NCBI GenBank assembly: GCA_947497895.1 | Contig: CANMIL010000004.1 | Location: 62,001 to 126,000 of the forward strand | Length of the DNA: 64,000 bases | Direction of reading: 5' to 3' | Source: an uncultured Tenacibaculum sp. | GTDB lineage: Bacteria; Bacteroidota; Bacteroidia; Flavobacteriales; Flavobacteriaceae | Part shown: one piece after another, positions 5,290 to 56,727 of the stretch | Layout: each line of letters begins with the position of its first letter | Numbering within the stretch: position 1 is the first letter of the stretch | The notes under the pieces: model-generated | What the model was told of the DNA's origin: nothing | The model's input: only the letters and a program-made list of their open reading frames with translations | Database searches by the model: none | Program-made: the position numbers and the translations under genes

Positions 5290-6132
5290 TTAAGAATTAG
5301 ATTTAACAAAAGGATTTTCTGAAACACTCTTTTCTTTAAAATTGTCCCAATGACTCTCTTCCATAAGAAAATACTCATCTGTATCATTAAACAAATCATA
5401 TTCATCAATGATAAATTTTAATTTAGGATAACCTCTACAATCTATAATAGAATAGTACATCAAAAAAGCTACCTCATGATCCCCTAGTTGTGAAATAATA
5501 AGATTATAATAAAACTTCTTATCTACTGAACCAATAAATTTAGTCGAATGTATAAACTCAAAAATCCCTATAATATTTCTAAAATATTGAGCTAAACCAT
5601 TATCTCTATTTTCTAAAAACACAGTATTAAAAGATTTTTCAAAAGTACTACCTTCCCTAAAACGGAATAGGACTCTATCATATAGATATTTAAAACACTC
5701 TCTTCCTTCTTTAAAACTGCTATCTCCGAAAGCATAATGAATACATTTTAAGTTATTAACAATCTCATTATGAAGATTTAGCATTTGAAAAAACGTATTC
5801 TCAAATTTTTATGTTTTCAAAGTATCATTTTGAATCTTAAACTCTTCTTTCTGACCTTTAAGTTCATTACGCGCCATTCTTAACTCTTCTCTCTGAAGTT
5901 TCAATTCCTGTCTCTGCATATTAATCGTATAAATTAACCCCGCAAATGCTAATCCAGAGAATAAAGCATTAACTGCTCCAAATGAATCTCCGAACACCCC
6001 AATCTTATTCCAATCCTCAAGACCTGGAATCATTTTCAATAATGGATGGGAGAATATCCAAATAATTACTATCAATAAAGACAATAAAATAAGAGGCCAC
6101 CAATTTGTTGAATTTTCTTTTTGTTCTTTCAT
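5290..6132 (-). pseudogene. putAbiC-type phage abortive-infection protein, split by an in-frame TAA
   Basis: The ORF track splits this into 107 aa (5809-6132) and 164 aa (5290-5784), but both parts lie in the same frame and are separated only by TAA at 5809-5811: ...QNDTLKT, stop, KFENTFFQMLNLHNEIV. The N-part has a TM segment (LILLSLLIVIIWIF), then FGDSFGAVNALFSGLAFAG and a QRQELKLQREEL coiled coil; the second part starts with FENTFFQ(L/M)L. This order and length (about 280 codons) are those of the putative phage abortive infection family (putAbiC). A CAA-to-TAA change (Gln to stop) would explain it. Either the gene is inactivated by a nonsense mutation, the two halves work as separate chains, or the stop is read through. 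Confidence 0.85.
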
Positions 6133-7287: not shown

Positions 7288-7335
7288 ATATTTTCACACT
7301 CCTAAGCCCTTTAAATACTAGGTTTATATTTTTTT

Positions 7336-7358
7336 GTTGACAGTTTTGTTGACACTTT
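7336..7358. promoter_or_regulatory. putative integrase arm-type sites, left arm
   Basis: Two direct copies of GTTGACA (GTTGACAGTTTT and GTTGACACTTT) lie about 50 bp inside the left end. The same pair with the same spacing occurs at 56770-56792 inside the right end, which fits arm-binding sites of a tyrosine recombinase. Confidence 0.65.
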
Positions 7359-7451
7359 CTTTATTTAACTCATAACAACGTTTCTTTATAACAATTCGGC
7401 AAAGTTATATAAAAATCCATTATCTCAATTAAATATTTATATATTTACAAC

Positions 7452-7473
7452 ATCTATGCAGACGTGCATAGAT
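7452..7473. other. 9-bp perfect hairpin near the left end
   Basis: ATCTATGCA / TGCATAGAT with loop GACG, followed by a T-rich run (TTTCTTTTT). It could be a terminator or part of a small RNA; a second terminator hairpin follows 20 bp later. Confidence 0.5.
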
Positions 7474-7494
7474 TTTCTTTTTCATAGCAATTTT

Positions 7495-7523
7495 CCCACT
7501 CAATCTTTTGAGTGGGTTTTTTA
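7495..7523 (+). terminator. rho-independent terminator before the ExoVII-like gene
   Basis: CCCACTCAA / TTGAGTGGG stem, loop TCTT, then TTTTTTA. It insulates the prophage cargo gene from rightward transcription entering across the left end. The ORF-track start TTG at 7508 lies inside this stem, which argues for the ATG at 7562. Confidence 0.8.
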
Positions 7524-7561
7524 TTTTATATATTGGAAGTATAAAATTAGCTATACTAAAC

Positions 7562-8596
7562 ATGACTACTCTAAGCTCAGAATATACAGTTGAATCGATT
7601 ATACACTTATATAGAGATAGTATCCGTACTAACTTTGATGAGAAAATTGTTACTCTCGAAGGTTTTTATCATGGATCGGGTAAACAATCTTACAATGGTG
7701 TTTATTATGATAGAATTTATGATGCTGACAAACTGCATAATCTAACAATTATAATTAAAGATCAACAAAGAAAGGGACTAATAACAGGACAATACTACCG
7801 ATTTAATGGCTTTATAAATCGTAGTGGCCAAATAGCAAAAGATGGTTCAATTCGTTATGGCTTTAGAGTAACTAAAATAGTTGAGCAATTAGATCAGCAC
7901 AAGTTCATTTCAAAAGATGAATTTGATTTAATACGTCAGCGTTTTGATAAAGATTCAGTAGATATACAAAGCTATTTACTTGAGATTATTAGAAACGGTA
8001 AAAGACCTAATATTCATATAATTTTAGGATCAACTTCAATTGTCGATGCTGATTATAAAAGCCAATTAAACGAGGATCATATTTTCAACATAACCGAGGA
8101 AAGAGTTAATTTCAGTAGAAGTTCTGAACTATTAAATGCATTTTCAGGAAATGACAATCAGGACAATGATCTAATCGTTTGCATGCGTGGTGGTGGTTCA
8201 GGATTAGAAATATTCAATAATACTGATTTAGCTAATCAAGTAGTCAAACTGCAAACACCATTTGTAACTGCTTTGGGGCATAAATCAGATCTTTCAATGA
8301 CTGAAAGAATGGCTGATCGTGGTTTTCCTACTCCAACAGCATTTGGTTCTTTTCTTAGTTTTATAGAAAACATCTATCTATCAGAAATTCAAGAACTGAA
8401 AGAAAAGGATACTAAAATAAAAGACCTAAATAAGAGAATTGAAGCTCTGGAGGTAAAACATAATAACGATAAAGAAGAACTAAAATTACTCTATACTGAA
8501 CTACAAATAAAAGATCAAAAGAAAATCAAAAAATTAAGTTTAGCTCTTCTTATAGCTTTCTTAGCTATTATAGTTCTATGGTTAATTTTAAAATAG
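7562..8596 (+). CDS. exonuclease VII large-subunit-like protein with C-terminal membrane anchor
   Basis: I choose ATG 7562 (344 aa) because the track start is a TTG in a terminator stem. Residues ~20-110 fit a small OB-like domain; ~150-270 contain the XseA catalytic-domain signatures: DLIVCMRGGGS, DLANQVVKLQTPFVTALGHKSD and ADRGFPTPTAFGS. A coiled coil (~275-320) replaces the usual long XseA helical tail and a single TM helix (LSLALLIAFLAIIVLWLIL) ends the protein. Canonical ExoVII degrades ssDNA with the small subunit XseB; none is encoded here and the protein is membrane-tethered, so a phage-exclusion or DNA-entry role is conceivable. It is the outermost prophage gene at attL, opposite in strand to the structural genes, typical for cargo. 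Confidence 0.85.
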   Translation: MTTLSSEYTVESIIHLYRDSIRTNFDEKIVTLEGFYHGSGKQSYNGVYYDRIYDADKLHNLTIIIKDQQRKGLITGQYYRFNGFINRSGQIAKDGSIRYGFRVTKIVEQLDQHKFISKDEFDLIRQRFDKDSVDIQSYLLEIIRNGKRPNIHIILGSTSIVDADYKSQLNEDHIFNITEERVNFSRSSELLNAFSGNDNQDNDLIVCMRGGGSGLEIFNNTDLANQVVKLQTPFVTALGHKSDLSMTERMADRGFPTPTAFGSFLSFIENIYLSEIQELKEKDTKIKDLNKRIEALEVKHNNDKEELKLLYTELQIKDQKKIKKLSLALLIAFLAIIVLWLILK

Positions 8597-8623: not shown

Positions 8624-9358
8624 TCAACTAAATAAATCATTTAATTCTGGATAATGAAAAGGTTCTAAAATATCAGGTCTATCACTATTAACTTTTGGTT
8701 TATAGATGTCTTGAGAAACTGGATAAGCTTGAATCGGTTCATCTGTAAAGGAAATGAGTAGTTCTTCAATCGAGGTTCGGTTATTTTTACAATAAAGCCA
8801 ATCCAATCTTCGCTCCTTAGACAATATTAACGGTTGTCTATTCTTTCCATTGTTATGAATTTTTCTAAAATAATCATTGGCTTCCATAGTAATTATGGTT
8901 GCAGAATATAAAGAAGAAGATCCGTTATCTATTTCACTATAAAGACCTGCAAACGCAAACAAACCATCATCTTCTTTTCTAAAATTAAATGGTATCGAAC
9001 CTTTTATATCTGGATCTTTATGAGGCTCAATAAATCCATCAGCAATTATTAGACATTTTTGCCATCCAATAAACTCAGAAAAAAAAGAACTTGTAAATAC
9101 ATTCTCACTCCTGGCATTAAAAGTTTTATAATCACGGAAAAACTCTTTTCTCTTACTTAAATCATATCCTGTAGGAAGTAAGCCCCAAGAAGCAAAATCA
9201 ATTAGTTCGGGGTCGTCTTGTCTAATAATATACAGGTTCTTATCCTCATACATATTAAAATCGAAGTAAGGTTTATAAACATCTGGCTCAGAAAAAGGAA
9301 TATTAAATTCGTTTTCCACCTCTTCTCTACTTTTCTTTATAGAAATTCTGTAACACAT
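8624..9358 (-). CDS. SRAP (YedK/HMCES-like) abasic-site processing protein
   Basis: A 244-residue protein with the SRAP family layout: Cys2 directly after the initiator Met (MCYRI), NARSE (KTFNARSENV), the acidic GFIEPH in place of the usual GFYEW, and the His-containing block IHNNGKNRQPLIL. In this family the N-terminal Cys forms a thiazolidine crosslink with abasic sites in ssDNA. It is convergent with the ExoVII-like gene; both handle ssDNA, so they could be a DNA-damage or counter-defence pair, though they are not in one operon. Confidence 0.9.
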   Translation of the reverse strand: MCYRISIKKSREEVENEFNIPFSEPDVYKPYFDFNMYEDKNLYIIRQDDPELIDFASWGLLPTGYDLSKRKEFFRDYKTFNARSENVFTSSFFSEFIGWQKCLIIADGFIEPHKDPDIKGSIPFNFRKEDDGLFAFAGLYSEIDNGSSSLYSATIITMEANDYFRKIHNNGKNRQPLILSKERRLDWLYCKNNRTSIEELLISFTDEPIQAYPVSQDIYKPKVNSDRPDILEPFHYPELNDLFS

Positions 9359-46324: not shown

Positions 46325-46690
46325 CTATCCCCAATAAGCCAACTCAGCTACATTTCTGTTAATATTAAATGATGTGATATTATCGTTTAGTTCAGCTCTT
46401 CTATTTTCAACTAGCTTAATAATGCAATCAAAAATTTTGTTTTGCTCCCTTTCTGCTAATTGGACAGTTTCTTCATCATCTCCTAACCATACGAAAAGCT
46501 CATATTTATCTTTCTTACAACCGTAAACCATATCTAGTCTGAAATAGCCCCAACCTAACTCCTCTTCAGCATAAAAAGCACACTCATTTTCAAGACTATG
46601 TAAGTTGTTATCTTCGAACTGTATAGTACATACTTCTACTATCTTTTCAATTTGCTCAGTAGTAAGTGCGTTTTTAACGGTTGCTTCCAT
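46325..46690 (-). CDS. first early gene, intact copy of the duplicated pair
   Basis: A 121-residue acidic protein if started at MEATVKNALTTEQIEKI; the track start at 46744 would place the start inside the operator. Contains FAYEEELGWGYF-type and LFVWLGDDEETVQLAER segments. Its first 60 codons and promoter region are duplicated at 47390-47612 (98 percent identity). It is the first gene after the immunity promoter and hence a candidate Cro/antirepressor-position gene; no HTH seen. Confidence 0.75.
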   Translation of the reverse strand: MEATVKNALTTEQIEKIVEVCTIQFEDNNLHSLENECAFYAEEELGWGYFRLDMVYGCKKDKYELFVWLGDDEETVQLAEREQNKIFDCIIKLVENRRAELNDNITSFNINRNVAELAYWG

Positions 46691-46733
46691 TTTTTTTGTA
46701 AGTTTGTGTTGTTGAACAATACGAAGATATAAC
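46511..46733. repeat. 223-bp duplication, copy 1
   Basis: Aligns base for base with 47390-47612 at offset 879 with about 4 mismatches (98 percent). Covers the first ~60 codons of the early gene and its minus-strand promoter (GTTATATCTTCG). Confidence 0.9.
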
Positions 46734-46764
46734 AAAACGTACAATTAAACAAAACAAAACGTAC
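46732..46764. promoter_or_regulatory. operator of repressor 1 (two direct repeats)
   Basis: Two identical 11-mers ACAAAACGTAC start at 46732 and 46754, exactly 22 bp apart (two helical turns), between the divergent early gene and repressor 1. This is the natural place for repressor binding. Confidence 0.7.
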
Positions 46765-46801
46765 TTTTTTGTTTGTTTTGTGTTTTTTATACTTATATAA
46801 T

Positions 46802-47215
46802 ATGCAAAAAAACAGACTCGAACTTATAATCAAGGAGCGAAAAAAGCAAGGAATAACTTGGGAGGAGTTATCAGATGGCCTTCCAATTGCTGGAAATTCG
46901 TTAAGAGTTGCTTTTACTCGTAAAAGTGTTGATGAAGTGTATATCGAACATGTAGAGTCTAAGCTAAACATTAAACAAAACAAACAAAACATACAACATG
47001 TCAAAAATGAGGATGATCAGGAAAACGACATCTATTACGAAAAAGACGGTGTTAAGATTAGTTTGGATGAAATATTATTATTTGTTTCGAAAAATGAAGA
47101 AAGATGTATGCAAGAAAAAATATTTTCTAATATTGTAGAAGTACGTGTTGCTAAACGTATATCAGAAATAACTGCTTCAAAAGAAAAACTAATGCAGTAT
47201 TTGGATATTTCTTAA
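46802..47215 (+). CDS. phage repressor-like protein 1
   Basis: A 137-residue protein from ATG 46802 (the track start at 46769 lies in the promoter). N-terminal HTH-like segment KERKKQGITWEELSDGLPIAG ... LRVAFTRKSVDEVYIEHVES, a linker rich in Asn/Gln, and a helical C-terminus (ERCMQEKIFSNIVEVRVAKR) suited to dimerisation. No peptidase domain. Divergent from the early operon. Confidence 0.75.
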   Translation: MQKNRLELIIKERKKQGITWEELSDGLPIAGNSLRVAFTRKSVDEVYIEHVESKLNIKQNKQNIQHVKNEDDQENDIYYEKDGVKISLDEILLFVSKNEERCMQEKIFSNIVEVRVAKRISEITASKEKLMQYLDIS

Positions 47216-47229
47216 TTTTTAGGTTTTCT

Positions 47230-47358
47230 ATGATTATTTTCCGTTTAGAAGAATTTATCAAACATAAAAACCTTAATATCAGGTCGTTTGAAAAACTTAT
47301 TGGTACTAGTGATGGTACAATTAGAAACGCATTAAAGAAAGAAAGAAAGAGAAATTAA
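47230..47358 (+). pseudogene. truncated repressor, HTH fragment
   Basis: Read by eye: 42 residues, MIIFRLEEFIKHKNLNIRSF ... TSDGTIRNALKKERKRN. It is the N-terminal HTH of a typical Bacteroidota prophage repressor (R-x-x-x-F-I ... S-F-E-x-x-I-G-x-S-x-G-T-I) that stops after the recognition helix. It lies 14 bp after repressor 1. Remnant or a mini-repressor. Confidence 0.65.
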
Positions 47359-47368
47359 TTCTAAGTGG

Positions 47369-47569
47369 TTAGTAATAATTTCCGATAATTTTCTTACAAC
47401 CGTAAACCATATCTAGTCTGAAATAGCCCCAACCTAACTCCTCTTCAGCATAAAAAGCACACTCATTTTCAAGACCATGTAAGTTGTTATCTTCGAACTG
47501 TATAGTACATACTTCTACTATCTTTTCAATTTGCTCGGTAGTAAGTGCGTTTTTAACGGTTGCTTCCAT
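47369..47569 (-). pseudogene. truncated copy of the first early gene
   Basis: 66 residues: the first ~60 match the 121-aa early gene (one Ser/Gly change), then the frame runs into IIGNYY-stop. Its intact promoter faces left, so its transcript would run antisense through the HTH fragment and repressor 1. Confidence 0.8.
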
Positions 47570-47612
47570 TTTTTTTGTAAGTTTGTGTTGTTGGATAATA
47601 CGAAGATATAAC
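47390..47612. repeat. 223-bp duplication, copy 2
   Basis: See copy 1 at 46511-46733; junctions are at the end of CGTAAGAAA-type sequence on the left and at the ATATAAC operator half on the right. Confidence 0.9.
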
Positions 47613-47623
47613 TTTTGTTATAT
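47606..47623. promoter_or_regulatory. operator of repressor 2 (18-bp perfect dyad)
   Basis: ATATAACTTTTGTTATAT is a perfect inverted repeat (7-bp arms, 4-bp centre) at the outer edge of the duplication and overlapping the copy-2 early promoter; a looser second copy (ATAATAACTTTTTTATATTA) follows at about 47638. Different from the operator of repressor 1. Confidence 0.7.
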
Positions 47624-47662
47624 TTCACAAAAAAAACATAATAACTTTTTTTATATTATTTT

Positions 47663-48109
47663 ATGTCAGATGTAGGAAATCGACTAAAAACCCTAGTGAA
47701 AACGTGCGGTTTCACCAATAAAAGTTTCGCTGAAAAAGCTGAAGTAGCGCCTAATTACATAAGTATACTTATAAGAACAGGGGATATTTCAGACAAATTC
47801 AAATACACTATAAAAAAAGTTATACCTAATACAAATATTAATTGGCTGGAAACGGGAAATGGTGAAATGCTCATGGATTCAGGAGACACTGGTCAGAAAT
47901 TCACCAAAGATTCGGATTTAGACATAGTTCCATTGTTGGAACACCTCCTAAAGCATAATGACGAGCTTATGAAGGATGAGACATTCATTAAGTATATACA
48001 AATGAATGCCGAGTATTTGTCATTAGAGGAAGAAAAGGAACTAAAAAAACAAGCTATTCAAGAACTCAGGGAAATAGCAAGAGAAAAAATTAGAAATAAA
48101 GAATTATAA
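47663..48109 (+). CDS. phage repressor 2 (CI-like HTH)
   Basis: A 148-residue protein with a clear HTH: GNRLKTLVKTCGFTNKSFAE ... APNYISILIRTG, followed by the INWLETGNGEML motif usual in Bacteroidota prophage repressors, and a helical C-terminal part (EEEKELKKQAIQELREIARE). No LexA-type peptidase domain, so SOS cleavage is not expected. Own operator lies just upstream. Confidence 0.88.
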   Translation: MSDVGNRLKTLVKTCGFTNKSFAEKAEVAPNYISILIRTGDISDKFKYTIKKVIPNTNINWLETGNGEMLMDSGDTGQKFTKDSDLDIVPLLEHLLKHNDELMKDETFIKYIQMNAEYLSLEEEKELKKQAIQELREIAREKIRNKEL

Positions 48110-48110
48110 A

Positions 48111-48130
48111 AAAACACCTCGTAATGAGGT
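48111..48130. terminator. bidirectional terminator
   Basis: AAAACACCTC / GAGGTGTTTT hairpin with GTAAT loop flanked by A- and T-runs, between repressor 2 (+) and AbiH (-). Confidence 0.8.
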
Positions 48131-48196
48131 GTTTTTTTACAGAACTCTATCAGCAAGTATACTTATAATCCTAATAAAAGATATAAATAAATATCT

Positions 48197-49480
48197 TTAT
48201 AAATGAAAACCAGTAATATCAAACTCTGATCGTCGTTTACTAGTCAAACTTATTTTTAGTTCTGGTGAATCAATCAAAAAGAACTCTAGAAACCCTCTTT
48301 GGTGTAGCTCAACAATTTCTCGTTGACCTCTAATAGCTATCAAATTAATTAATAAACGAGATCTTGATTCATCATCATGATGAATAATGGTAATCTTATT
48401 ATCAGTTGAAGCATCCCGACGACCATTTTTTAATTGATAATTTAAATGGTCAAACACAGCGTCTATGTAATATTTATCTGAAGTATCAAGGGAATGTCCA
48501 AAAAAATAGAAATGAACATTCTCTCCACCGAAATCTGTTAGGAAGTTATAATCACACTTTAGATAAAGTTTTTGATAATATTTAGTAAAGGGTATGAAAT
48601 ATTTTTCACCAACCCCATTTTCAGGTATTTCATTTACACCAAGAACAATTTTATTCTGACCTTCTTCAATTCTCCCATGAAGAAAATCAGTTTTACAACC
48701 ATCAATATTGTAAAACTTTTCAAAGGTTGGTGTATAATTAAATGTGAAATGATGACTAACCAGTTTAAATATATCTGGATCCATCTGTTCTTTTAAGTTA
48801 TCATAAAAAGGAAAAACGAAAATTTCAAAATATAAATTAAAGACACGTTTAAATTCCTCCAACTCCTTTATCAAATCATTATAAATAGCTGTAAAGTCAA
48901 TATCAATATAACGCCCCTCAGCACTTCCTTTTTCTCTCTTTACTAAATATTTTTTCGAAATTCCAAGCTTAAATCTACTAATACCTTCCCCTTCTCTATT
49001 AAAAACTTCAAAAGCCTCTAGCATGTTAACTGTGTCATATCTGTAGTTATTACTTTCATCTGTAATTAACAGTTTTTCTGAATACTCCGAAATCTTAACA
49101 GAAGAGGTGCTAAATGATTTTCTTCCGTAATAAAAATGGATTAATGAATCATATATTTTAGTAATAACGAACTCAATTTTGTTTTCAAAATCAATCCAAG
49201 TTTCAATATTATACTCTTTCAAAAAAAATTTAAACCACAAATTCTTTTTTAATATTACTCGGACCTCATTTATTAAATCTGTATCAAATTCAAATTTCTT
49301 ATAACGCTCTAATATTTTTGCATATTTCCATCCACATTCCTTGTATATGTTATCAAAGTTAAAAATAAAACTTTCTTCCTTCGATAGAATGTATTTATAG
49401 ATATTCATTATATCCCCATATGAAGTAGGTAAATAATGATTCAAATCAAAACCATTTCCTGTAATAAGTATTCTTTTCAT
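48197..49480 (-). CDS. AbiH-family phage abortive-infection protein
   Basis: A 427-residue protein starting KRILITGNGFDLNHYLPTSY, the nucleotide-binding-like GNGFD signature of AbiH, with the second hallmark IETWIDFENKIE (W-x-D-x-E) and a C-terminal HSLD-type motif (FFGHSLDTSDKYY). Located in the lysogeny arm, it is presumably expressed from the prophage and excludes other phages. Mechanism of AbiH proteins is not known to me. Confidence 0.92.
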   Translation of the reverse strand: MKRILITGNGFDLNHYLPTSYGDIMNIYKYILSKEESFIFNFDNIYKECGWKYAKILERYKKFEFDTDLINEVRVILKKNLWFKFFLKEYNIETWIDFENKIEFVITKIYDSLIHFYYGRKSFSTSSVKISEYSEKLLITDESNNYRYDTVNMLEAFEVFNREGEGISRFKLGISKKYLVKREKGSAEGRYIDIDFTAIYNDLIKELEEFKRVFNLYFEIFVFPFYDNLKEQMDPDIFKLVSHHFTFNYTPTFEKFYNIDGCKTDFLHGRIEEGQNKIVLGVNEIPENGVGEKYFIPFTKYYQKLYLKCDYNFLTDFGGENVHFYFFGHSLDTSDKYYIDAVFDHLNYQLKNGRRDASTDNKITIIHHDDESRSRLLINLIAIRGQREIVELHQRGFLEFFLIDSPELKISLTSKRRSEFDITGFHL

Positions 49481-49611: not shown

Positions 49612-49794
49612 TCAAAACAAGGTAGAGAAATTAGAAATTCCAATTGTCTTATAATTATTTATTGATTGGTTTTGTTTTTCAACCTCTTCTTCGATCTCTT
49701 CTTGCAAATCTTTTTTGAACTGCTCTTCTGTTTCTGTATCAAAAAATTTTGACTTTCTTCCCTTATCAAAATACTCTTCCTTACTCATTATCAA
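49612..49794 (-). CDS. small acidic protein downstream of membrane module 1
   Basis: A 60-residue charged protein (MSKEEYFDKGRKSKFFDTET ... EEEVEKQNQSINNYK). It overlaps the stop of the membrane protein by 14 nt, so it belongs to that operon. Not recognised. Confidence 0.6.
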   Translation of the reverse strand: MIMSKEEYFDKGRKSKFFDTETEEQFKKDLQEEIEEEVEKQNQSINNYKTIGISNFSTLF

Positions 49795-50554
49795 GTGCGT
49801 TTTTTGCTAATTCTAATCTCCTTTTTTTGTACTCGTTTATTTTTTCATCCTTGATATATCCCTTCTTCTCGGACTCAATGAATATGAAATTAAATAACCC
49901 CCTTATAATTGTGTAAAGCGATTCTTTCTTGACAAAATATCGAGTTAAACCATAAATAAAACAACCAGTCAAAACAGAAACACCTAAAGCGACATAGAAG
50001 TACGTCTCTGAGTAGAAGTCATTTGCTGTTTGAAAGAACAAATGATAAAACCAAAAAACGCATACAGAAACCCCTGCAATTGAAATGAATTTATGACCAG
50101 TATTTATGTCCCGATTAATATCATCAAAAACAGATTTAATGCTAAAATAAAACCCCAATAAAACAATACCAAATTGACCAAGCCAGTACTTAAAGCTTCC
50201 CCTTCCAAGGAATGACCATTCTTCTTTCAATCGCTTATTCACCTTTGTGAATTCTCTTAGTTTTTCTTGTGAAGCCAACCACTCTAAATTTCGACTTTCT
50301 TTGTATTCATCAATTGTTAAGGATTTTCCCAATTGAATTAGTAATGAGTCTTGAACCTCATTTCTATCGGCTATAATTTTAGTGTATTCCTTTTTATGCT
50401 CAATGTACTCTTTTGACCATCTGTCGAAAGCAGCATGGAAAAGAGACATTCCTACAATAAGAAACGCCCCTATACCCAATAAAAAACTTTTAATTTTAAT
50501 TCCCGTTGTTGTTTTCTGATCCTGTTTCGATTGGCTCTGGGTCGATGGTTCCAT
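49781..50554 (-). CDS. multi-TM membrane protein, module 1
   Basis: From ATG 50554 it has 257 residues (the track start is 14 residues upstream). N-terminal TM (IKSFLLGIGAFLIVGMSLFH), an extracytoplasmic or cytoplasmic helical domain (RWSKEYIEHKKEYTKIIADR ... LREFTKVNKRLKEEW), then four TMs and a basic helical tail. Homologous to the 51463-52143 protein: SKE(Y/F)IE(H/S)KK, FG(I/L) ... and GL(I)TRY-type blocks align in order. Its 5' end overlaps the lipoprotein gene by 59 nt. Confidence 0.78.
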   Translation of the reverse strand: MEPSTQSQSKQDQKTTTGIKIKSFLLGIGAFLIVGMSLFHAAFDRWSKEYIEHKKEYTKIIADRNEVQDSLLIQLGKSLTIDEYKESRNLEWLASQEKLREFTKVNKRLKEEWSFLGRGSFKYWLGQFGIVLLGFYFSIKSVFDDINRDINTGHKFISIAGVSVCVFWFYHLFFQTANDFYSETYFYVALGVSVLTGCFIYGLTRYFVKKESLYTIIRGLFNFIFIESEKKGYIKDEKINEYKKRRLELAKNALDNE

Positions 50555-50687
50555 CGTCGTCTGGGTCTGTTGCGTGAAGTGATGTTTGGTATTCATTTTG
50601 TTCTAATTCTTCTAAGCTGTTGTCGGTGCAACTATTTAAGGATACTAAACTCGTTAATAATACCGCCGCTAATACAATTTTTCTCAT
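50496..50687 (-). CDS. small acidic lipoprotein, module 1
   Basis: A 63-residue lipoprotein: MRKIVLAAVLLTSLVSLNSC with Cys20 as lipid site, then a disordered acidic tail (TDPDDDGTIDPEPIETGSEN). Related in design to the 58-aa lipoprotein of module 2 (SCTDxxxE ... NxYQTS/NQTQS, acidic end). The end of its coding sequence is also read as the start of the membrane protein. A GTATCTTTA promoter box sits about 40 bp upstream, the same as in module 2. Confidence 0.78.
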   Translation of the reverse strand: MRKIVLAAVLLTSLVSLNSCTDNSLEELEQNEYQTSLHATDPDDDGTIDPEPIETGSENNNGN

Positions 50688-51462: not shown

Positions 51463-52143
51463 TTATTTATCATTTGCAATTTTTTTCAAAACTTCAAAAG
51501 TTTCCTCTTGTTTCTCTGGTTTAGCGTTCCGTAAAGCAAGTTTTGAAATAGTAAAGTTTTGCTCTCTTAGTTTCTGAATGCTGTCTTTCTTGTAGCGAGT
51601 AATCAACCAGATAGCTGCTGTAACTAGGATAGCTGAAATGAATGTCATAAGGTTATATGCTGCAACACTTAGATCTTGGAATTTCTGGAACATCCAAAAG
51701 AAATAAAAGAAAGGAATAGAAAGCATGTATGTGTGATATACTTTGCTTCCTATATTCTTTCTCTCTCTAAAATGTGATTTTATTAGATTATATAGTGCAT
51801 ATATGGAAAATGCTACCATCAAACCAAATCTTTCTATGAAATACCTTAACGATATAAAGACAAAAACTTCTTCATCTTTTTTCACTTCTTTATATTTATC
51901 CCATAAATCATTGGTGATTTTGTCTTGCTTTTCAAATTCATTATACAATTCGGTACCTTTGGATGCTTCTATTATTGCCAAAACTACTTTTCTACGCTTG
52001 TTTTTAGCTTCTTTATGAGCCTTCTTTGACTCTATGAATTCCTTACTAAATTCTTCAATATTTTGGTGTGTAAGAAAAGCAATACTACTTATTATAAGCG
52101 CTATATAAACACCATTTTTACGTAAGATCGTTATTATCTTCAT
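51463..52143 (-). CDS. multi-TM membrane protein, module 2
   Basis: From ATG 52143 (MKIITILRKNGVYIALIISS) it has 226 residues; the track start at 52221 would lie deep inside the lipoprotein gene. TM1 at ~10-28, helical domain (EFSKEFIESKKAHKEAKNKR), then four TMs (FGLMVAFSIYALYNLI; YMLSIPFFYFFWMF; FISAILVTAAIWLITRY) and a charged tail. Paralogue of the module 1 protein. Overlaps the lipoprotein gene by 26 nt. Confidence 0.78.
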   Translation of the reverse strand: MKIITILRKNGVYIALIISSIAFLTHQNIEEFSKEFIESKKAHKEAKNKRRKVVLAIIEASKGTELYNEFEKQDKITNDLWDKYKEVKKDEEVFVFISLRYFIERFGLMVAFSIYALYNLIKSHFRERKNIGSKVYHTYMLSIPFFYFFWMFQKFQDLSVAAYNLMTFISAILVTAAIWLITRYKKDSIQKLREQNFTISKLALRNAKPEKQEETFEVLKKIANDK

Positions 52144-52294
52144 CGTCGTCACCTCCTCCTCCTGGATGGGTGTCATTTCCTTTGTCGATTGATTGCGTTT
52201 GGTTTTCAAGTAATTTAACATCTTCTGTTGTTGTATCTGTACAAGAAGCTAGAACTAAACTAAATGCGAATAAAACTAATAGTAATTTTTTCAT
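52118..52294 (-). CDS. small acidic lipoprotein, module 2 (missed by ORF track)
   Basis: Read by eye: ATG 52292-52294, TAA 52118-52120; 58 residues, MKKLLLVLFAFSLVLASC (Cys18) then TDTTTEDVKLLENQTQSIDK and a Gly/Asp-rich end (GGGGDDDEDNNDLT). Counterpart of the 63-aa lipoprotein in module 1. A TATCTTTA box (52320-52328 on the plus strand as TAAAGATAC) is 26 bp upstream, so it is expressed separately from the response regulator. Confidence 0.8.
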   Translation of the reverse strand: MKKLLLVLFAFSLVLASCTDTTTEDVKLLENQTQSIDKGNDTHPGGGGDDDEDNNDLT

Positions 52295-55428: not shown

Positions 55429-56727
55429 TTATTTACCTTTCTTGCTATAATATTCTTTCCAAAATCTTTTTAAATTCTCGGCATGCTCAGATGGTGTGAT
55501 TTGAATATATTTCAAAAAACTAGATTGTGTTTTATGTCCTGTTATCGCCATTATAGAAAGTATAGGAAAGTTCATTTTATAAAGATTAGTAGCGAAAGAC
55601 CTTCTACACACATGAGAGGCTATAAGCTCGTATTTTGGATATAATCCGGTTACTTTTCTTTTTACAAGATTAGTTTCCCCTTGAATTTTAATAAGCTTAG
55701 TAACGCCACCTTGAACCATTTGATCAAACCCAACAATTTCAGCGACTTCTTTAATATATTTATTGAACTTTACATCAGAAATTTTACGTGGCATCCCCCT
55801 GGTCTTAATAACTTCAACAATATGATGATGTAGAGGAATTACGACAGATACTCCAGTACTATTTTCAGTTTTTTTTGGTGTTACTTCAATAAATTCACTT
55901 TCTAAATCAATCTCTGGTAAAGATAAAAAATCATTAACCCTAAGCCCAGTCCACAATCCAATGATTAGTAAGTCACGCGCATTTTGCAACCTATCATTTT
56001 CTGAAAAATCGTATTCCAATATTTTCTGTATCTCTTCTTCATTAAACACAACCGCTTTCACCTTTTCAGATTGGACCACAAACGATTTTAACCCAGCTTC
56101 ATCTATTTTATACCCTCTTTCATAAGCCTTAGAAATTAATGTCTTTAAAGTCTTTATAATCTCCCCTATTGAATTATAAGAATACTTTCTATCCTGAAGA
56201 AAGCTTAAGAAAGAATCATAAACAGATGCGTTGAAACCATCTATTCTAATCTTGCGCCCATTCTTCGCTTCAAACTTCGTATAAATATTAAATCCTTTAT
56301 TATAATTCCTTATGGCAGAAGATTCGTAAACTTTTTTTGTTTTCCTATTTATTGTCTCAGGGGCCTTCACTAGAAAGTCCTCTACAAAATCTGAAAAGTA
56401 AACGAACCTCTCTTCTTTCCTTTTTTTTCCTAACTCTTCATCAAAAACATTCTTAAGATTTTCTTTAGTTAATAGAATATTATTTAAATCAAACTTCTCA
56501 ATAGTTCTCTCCAATAAATCTGAATACTTCTGTAGATTCCTTTTTATTAAACTTAGATCGGATCTCCCTCTTTTAGAAATTGGCGATCTAGTTTCGACAC
56601 TCCATTCGCTTGGTAAAATATTTAAACCCGTTGAATAAGTGAAACGCCCTTCTTGTTTCGAAATATAATATTTAAGAAGAATTGGTGAAGGTTTATCCGA
56701 ATTAGGTGTCCTAAGAAAAAAGCTCAT
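55429..56727 (-). CDS. tyrosine recombinase (phage integrase)
   Basis: A 432-residue integrase. Arm/core-binding regions at ~1-200 (SAM-like segment FSDFVEDFLVKAPETINRKT); catalytic residues Arg263 (TGLRVNDF), His372 and Arg375 (ASHVCRRSF), His398 (ITGHKTQ) and Tyr407 (FLKYIQ). Belongs to the Bacteroidota phage integrase SAM-like type. Located directly beside the intact tRNA-Arg with arm sites in between, so it is the enzyme of this prophage. Confidence 0.96.
   Translation of the reverse strand: MSFFLRTPNSDKPSPILLKYYISKQEGRFTYSTGLNILPSEWSVETRSPISKRGRSDLSLIKRNLQKYSDLLERTIEKFDLNNILLTKENLKNVFDEELGKKRKEERFVYFSDFVEDFLVKAPETINRKTKKVYESSAIRNYNKGFNIYTKFEAKNGRKIRIDGFNASVYDSFLSFLQDRKYSYNSIGEIIKTLKTLISKAYERGYKIDEAGLKSFVVQSEKVKAVVFNEEEIQKILEYDFSENDRLQNARDLLIIGLWTGLRVNDFLSLPEIDLESEFIEVTPKKTENSTGVSVVIPLHHHIVEVIKTRGMPRKISDVKFNKYIKEVAEIVGFDQMVQGGVTKLIKIQGETNLVKRKVTGLYPKYELIASHVCRRSFATNLYKMNFPILSIMAITGHKTQSSFLKYIQITPSEHAENLKRFWKEYYSKKGK

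Follow-up and report, generated by a model that had tools for sequence, protein, structure and literature searches.

A probable composite immunity region with two repressor specificities in a Tenacibaculum prophage

An intact-looking prophage of 49.7 kb (bases 7266–56930) holds two immunity modules in tandem within a 64,000-nucleotide contig segment of an uncultured Tenacibaculum sp., here called the window. The locus is best read (at a probability of about 0.6) as a composite immunity region of two specificities that most likely arose through a single illegitimate crossover of heteroimmune relatives. Judged by comparison with independent relatives, the two repressors probably differ in DNA-binding specificity, each with a cognate operator, as an earlier first-pass annotation had proposed.

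Anatomy of the immunity region

The region is placed in an integrated phage genome by att repeats, an integrase, and head and tail genes. A tRNA-Arg gene carries one copy of the att repeat TTATTGTGATCGCGACAGGATT at its 3' end, and the prophage contains terminase, portal, major head and tape-measure genes as well as tail genes. In the immunity region, an HTH repressor diverges from the early operon. The features referred to below are the following.

7266 and 56909: att, the 22-bp repeat TTATTGTGATCGCGACAGGATT, bounding the prophage
46325–46690, minus strand: intact early gene (121 aa), an open reading frame, first in the early operon
46511–46733, minus strand: repeat copy A, with early-gene codons 1–60, leader and −7 element
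46722–46753, minus strand: putative early promoter PA, TTTG-N20-TATCTTCG
46731–46742, plus strand: operator 1, distal site AACAAAACGTAC, an exact 12-mer upstream of three relatives with the Rep1 HTH
46753–46764, plus strand: operator 1, proximal site AACAAAACGTAC(TTTTTT), an exact 12-mer in the same relatives
46802–47215, plus strand: rep1, repressor 1 (137 aa), with a lambdoid-type HTH N-terminus
46984–46994, plus strand: third operator-1-like copy with one mismatch, inside rep1
47230–47389, plus strand: rep3, pseudogene of a repressor 5' third, frameshifted and truncated; the open reading frame ends at 47358
47334–47349, plus strand: (AAAG)4 tract with an extra, frameshifting unit; the sole four-copy tetranucleotide tract in the window
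47369–47569, minus strand: truncated stub of the early gene, with 60 of its codons and 6 codons from the junction
47390–47612, minus strand: repeat copy B, joined to rep3 at 47390, with microhomology TTTC
47601–47631, minus strand: putative promoter PB, TTTG-N19-TATCTTCG, which would run antisense through rep3 and rep1
47606–47623, plus strand: operator 2, ATATAACTTTTGTTATAT, with 16/18 matches upstream of the repressors at loci L018 and L120
47639–47656, plus strand: weaker operator-2-like site with three mismatches, near the rep2 start
47663–48109, plus strand: rep2, repressor 2 (148 aa), with a Phage_CI_repr-type HTH
48096–48150, no strand assigned: hairpin terminator separating rep2 from a convergent AbiH gene
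55429–56727: prophage integrase

The 223-bp block that had been reported to occur twice, at an offset of 879 and with 98 percent identity, was exactly as described. The copies agree at 219 of 223 positions, and the four substitutions comprise two in the leader, one that is silent and one Ser/Gly exchange. Each copy lies next to a different operator and a different repressor gene, again as claimed, and both repressor genes were found as intact open reading frames. No further copy of the repeat was found elsewhere in the genome, and outside the block the two modules have no significant DNA similarity. The only complete early operon is the one next to module 1.

A candidate −7 element, TATCTTCG, lies inside the shared block. 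Since the block includes neither the −33 TTTG nor the operators, each copy has the −33 element and the operator of its own module. The motif conforms to TAnnTTTG, the −7 consensus for Flavobacterium (PMC9723704). However, the promoter pattern is not more frequent in the window than expected by chance (11 instances versus 8.4), and PA and PB are therefore treated as putative; a sigma-70 scan is uninformative for promoters of Bacteroidota. No minus-strand terminator was found from PB to rep1, and none on the plus strand from rep1 to rep2. Because none was found on the latter stretch and a hairpin follows rep2, rep2 may be transcribed by read-through from rep1.

Between the two copies lies the third HTH reading frame that had been noted at 47230–47358. 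As a working repressor it was rejected, being both frameshifted and truncated. In an alignment, rep3 is colinear with the repressor of locus L025 save for one 4-nt insertion in the AAAG tract, and slippage at (AAAG)4 inactivated it. With the offset corrected, rep3 runs on to ISDNF and ends at the junction 47389/47390, where its sequence GATAATTTTC has TTTC in common with TTTCTTAC of the early gene. The pseudogene rep3 marks the join; it was cut off there, probably at this 4-bp microhomology.

Repressors and their operators

The HTH of Rep1 is 58 percent identical over the domain to that of locus L008 (genome G422, contig 93; the gene is also present in CAJXAS010000093.1, from an uncultured Polaribacter), and those of L117 and L118 are similar. 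Its C-terminal domain is common to L009 and L014. Rep2 matches Phage_CI_repr with an E-value of 0.0005, just under the curated cut-off. In structural models, the N-terminal domain of Rep2 is predicted to be of the SinR/434 Cro/P22 c2 type, followed by a long helix, and Rep1 is predicted, at lower confidence, to have an HTH of a Rep2-like fold. Scans of IMG/VR with full-length rep1 and rep2 found nothing; it was a query with the HTH part that yielded L117 and L118. Homology between the C-terminal domains of Rep1 and Rep2 was considered and not established (hhalign probability 2.7 percent). The repressors of this group (46802–47215, L008, L117, L009 and L014) look like two-domain mosaics, in which one HTH occurs with unrelated C-termini and one C-terminus with unrelated HTHs.

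The direct repeats ACAAAACGTAC of operator 1, at 46732 and 46754 and 22 bp apart, are exact, and the 64 kb contain no other exact copy. For operator 2, the sequence ATATAACTTTTGTTATAT of the earlier description is exact, and it is unique, but the dyad is not perfect over all 18 bp: the 7-bp arms (ATATAAC/GTTATAT) are perfect, and the TTTT centre is not self-complementary.

Which repressor would bind which operator? The HTH domains differ and so do the operators, and comparison with relatives argues strongly for the pairing of operator 1 with the Rep1 type and moderately for that of operator 2 with the Rep2 type. Exact AACAAAACGTAC stands at −38 from the repressor start in L008, L117 and L118, all of which share the Rep1 HTH. 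When these upstream regions were put through 500 dinucleotide shuffles, only 0–1 reached such a match. As L117 and L118 are close kin, the three loci count as two independent lineages. In IMG/VR, the exact 18-mer AACAAAACGTACTTTTTT is confined to four contigs, standing before Rep1-HTH genes in two and inside unrelated coding genes in the other two. Operator 2, on the other hand, is identical at 16 of 18 positions at −59 in L018 and at −49 in L120 (−57 in the window), both of which share the Rep2 HTH; for each, 2 of 500 shuffles reached this match. Its support is weaker than that of operator 1 because the site is AT-rich and there are only two relatives. The exact 18-mer of operator 2 turned up in 15 contig stretches of IMG/VR, but no repressor-like gene lies close to any of them, so that there an exact match by itself is uninformative. 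The converse pairings gave matches at chance level only, both for operator 1 near Rep2-type genes and for operator 2 at L008 and L117, whose repressor genes are of the Rep1 type.

The first-pass annotation had also called for phages carrying a single module. Module 1 alone was indeed found, in L117, L118 and L008, but module 2 together with this early gene was not. For module 2, L018 and L120 are relatives in repressor and operator only.

Origin and proposed working of the tandem modules

How did two immunity modules come to lie side by side? The proposal that they were joined by recombination on the shared early gene is supported, and the locus most likely stems either from a recent illegitimate crossover of heteroimmune phages or from tandem duplication followed by module replacement. 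The former route, the simplest history, would take a single illegitimate crossover, at a microhomology of about 4 bp, between heteroimmune relatives whose early genes were nearly identical. One of them, phage A, would have contributed the early gene, operator 1, rep1 and rep3, broken within rep3, and the other, phage B, an early gene cut short after codon 60 together with operator 2 and rep2. Neither parent phage has been seen, as the early gene is without detectable close relatives. It matches nothing in Pfam or NCBIfam; no relatives were found in 299 genomes of the family or in IMG/VR, GTDB contigs and phage records; and 166 genomes of the genus gave a single weak local match (32 percent, E 8e-4).

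The second route, in which a tandem duplication in one phage was followed by the swap of one operator–repressor module for a foreign one, would yield the same function. It has parallels in L096, L123 and L168, where duplications of operator and repressor start from at or near the 5' end of the early gene. However, it requires two events, whereas a single joining event is directly in keeping with the near identity of the early blocks and with a piece of rep3 lying at the junction. This route is considered unlikely.

In the composite region as formed by a crossover, Rep1 on operator 1 would silence the working early promoter and thereby maintain lysogeny. Rep2 on operator 2 would silence the promoter for the gene stub and for antisense RNA into rep1. 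A plausible benefit of module 2 is superinfection immunity in trans against operator-2 phages. When the repeats are recombined in silico, 879 bp are deleted and an intact 121-aa early gene adjoins operator 2; recombination at the 223-bp repeats would thus restore the order early gene, operator 2, rep2 and switch the immunity type.

The antisense orientation of PB had suggested a hierarchical switch, in which loss of Rep2 would release PB transcription through rep3 and rep1, lower Rep1 and trigger the early operon, so that two signals would be integrated and PB would be a working regulatory element. PB retains its −33 and −7 elements with operator 2 in between, and the minus strand, on which no terminator was found down to rep1, fits as well. 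Against this, the arrangement is recent (98 percent identity) and its layout is accounted for by the crossover alone; moreover, L168 is a parallel array whose early stub carries stops and has decayed to 71 percent identity. Such a switch is quite improbable. It is very unlikely that module 2 is non-functional debris of a recent illegitimate recombination, due to be lost: the duplication is recent, rep3 is dead and the early copy is truncated, but rep2 and operator 2 are intact, as are the downstream repressor copies of other arrays, with dN/dS of 0.14–0.23. There is hardly any likelihood that the assembly stitched together two prophage variants of one culture at the 223-bp block, for although the genome is a draft of 129 contigs, the junction between stub and rep3 does not coincide with a long repeat, rep3 is a genuine pseudogene, the contig is 344 kb long, and other loci have a similar architecture.

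Related arrays, known systems and neighboring genes

Tandem repressor clusters occur at four places, namely the window locus and genomes G462, G334 and G336, the count covering 27 Polaribacter genomes listed in full that were picked largely for having several repressor matches. In G336 (L168), a full early gene, an operator and a repressor are followed by a decayed stub with stops, an operator and a repressor; the unit is about 880 bp, and the layout is the same as in the window. In G334 (L096) there are three operator–repressor copies, with the junction within the early leader, and L123, from another genus, has two. In G462 (L097), three different repressors stand in tandem, flanked by early and lysogeny genes that resemble those of the window prophage; the third in this stack (7324–8049) is a tandem-fused repressor of 241 aa with two HTH domains.

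The presence of similar arrays in other Flavobacteriaceae implies that stacking recurs. Between array copies, dN/dS is 0.14–0.23 at dS of 0.7–1.9, and the copies thus remain under constraint, although part of this signal could predate the joining and have accrued in separate phages. The window array stands apart through its recent formation and through the two unrelated specificities that it combines. These patterns suggest that phages of this group gain resistance to rival viruses through stacked immunity modules. A more general scheme can be offered tentatively, as a possibility: flavobacterial phages may keep serial immunity arrays whose modules are gained and lost by recombination at early-gene 5'-end stubs, with each retained module widening superinfection immunity and deletion between stubs switching the type, and the window would then be a fresh array of two specificities.

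Heteroimmune lambdoid phages such as lambda, 434, 21 and P22 exchange immunity regions through homologous flanks. They share with the window a divergent operator region, a cognate HTH repressor and the homologous flanks, but there one module replaces another, whereas the window retains the two in tandem, separated by a truncated early gene. P22 (immC and immI) and P1 carry two immunity systems per genome and so resemble the window in having more than one repressor–operator system in one temperate phage. Their second system controls its own antirepressor, whereas the second early promoter of the window would drive only a 60-codon stub and antisense RNA, with no antirepressor; and both window modules grew from the same early-gene promoter, unlike those of P22 and P1. 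In Mycobacterium abscessus, tandem prophages bring together two unrelated repressors (PMC9934374). As in the window, two unrelated immunity repressors are stacked at one locus by recombination, but there whole prophages are joined at att sites, while here immunity regions alone are joined within one prophage. In cluster A mycobacteriophages, repressor and operator specificities diversify, and one escape mutant is a recombinant that acquired its early promoter and repressor region from a different phage (PMC6550527). Unlike the window prophage, these phages have a single repressor per genome and operators scattered as stoperators.

Literature searches on double immunity or tandem repressors yielded no direct precedent, and little is documented of how temperate phages alter or widen their immunity specificity, as has been stated for the cluster A phages (PMC6550527). 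The window would represent a two-specificity intermediate caught in one prophage, with repeats that could resolve the arrangement, and the related tandem arrays of other genomes form a series of ages. The route between immunity types thereby becomes directly testable.

The surroundings of the region offer several further observations. A gene for a putAbiC-domain protein (5290–5784) lies about 1.5 kb beyond the left prophage end, and genes for an exonuclease VII large-subunit-like protein (7508–8596) and a SRAP-domain protein (8624–9358) lie at that end of the prophage. An abortive-infection gene of the AbiH family (48197–49480) stands between rep2 and a membrane cassette. This three-gene cassette (49612–50687) encodes a coiled-coil protein of 60–90 aa, a membrane protein of about 270 aa and a small SCTD lipoprotein, and had no match among known families and defence models. 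In many prophages of Polaribacter it lies in convergent orientation with the repressor, and it also adjoins orphan repressors among chromosomal genes; besides the window, the loci concerned are L009, L014, L018, L024 and L108–L115. A second, related membrane protein (51463–52221), with a weak match to Saf_2TM, adjoins a LuxR-type response regulator and a lipoprotein that resembles lipocalins. The three genes are syntenic in L097, as are those of the membrane protein and the regulator in L099.
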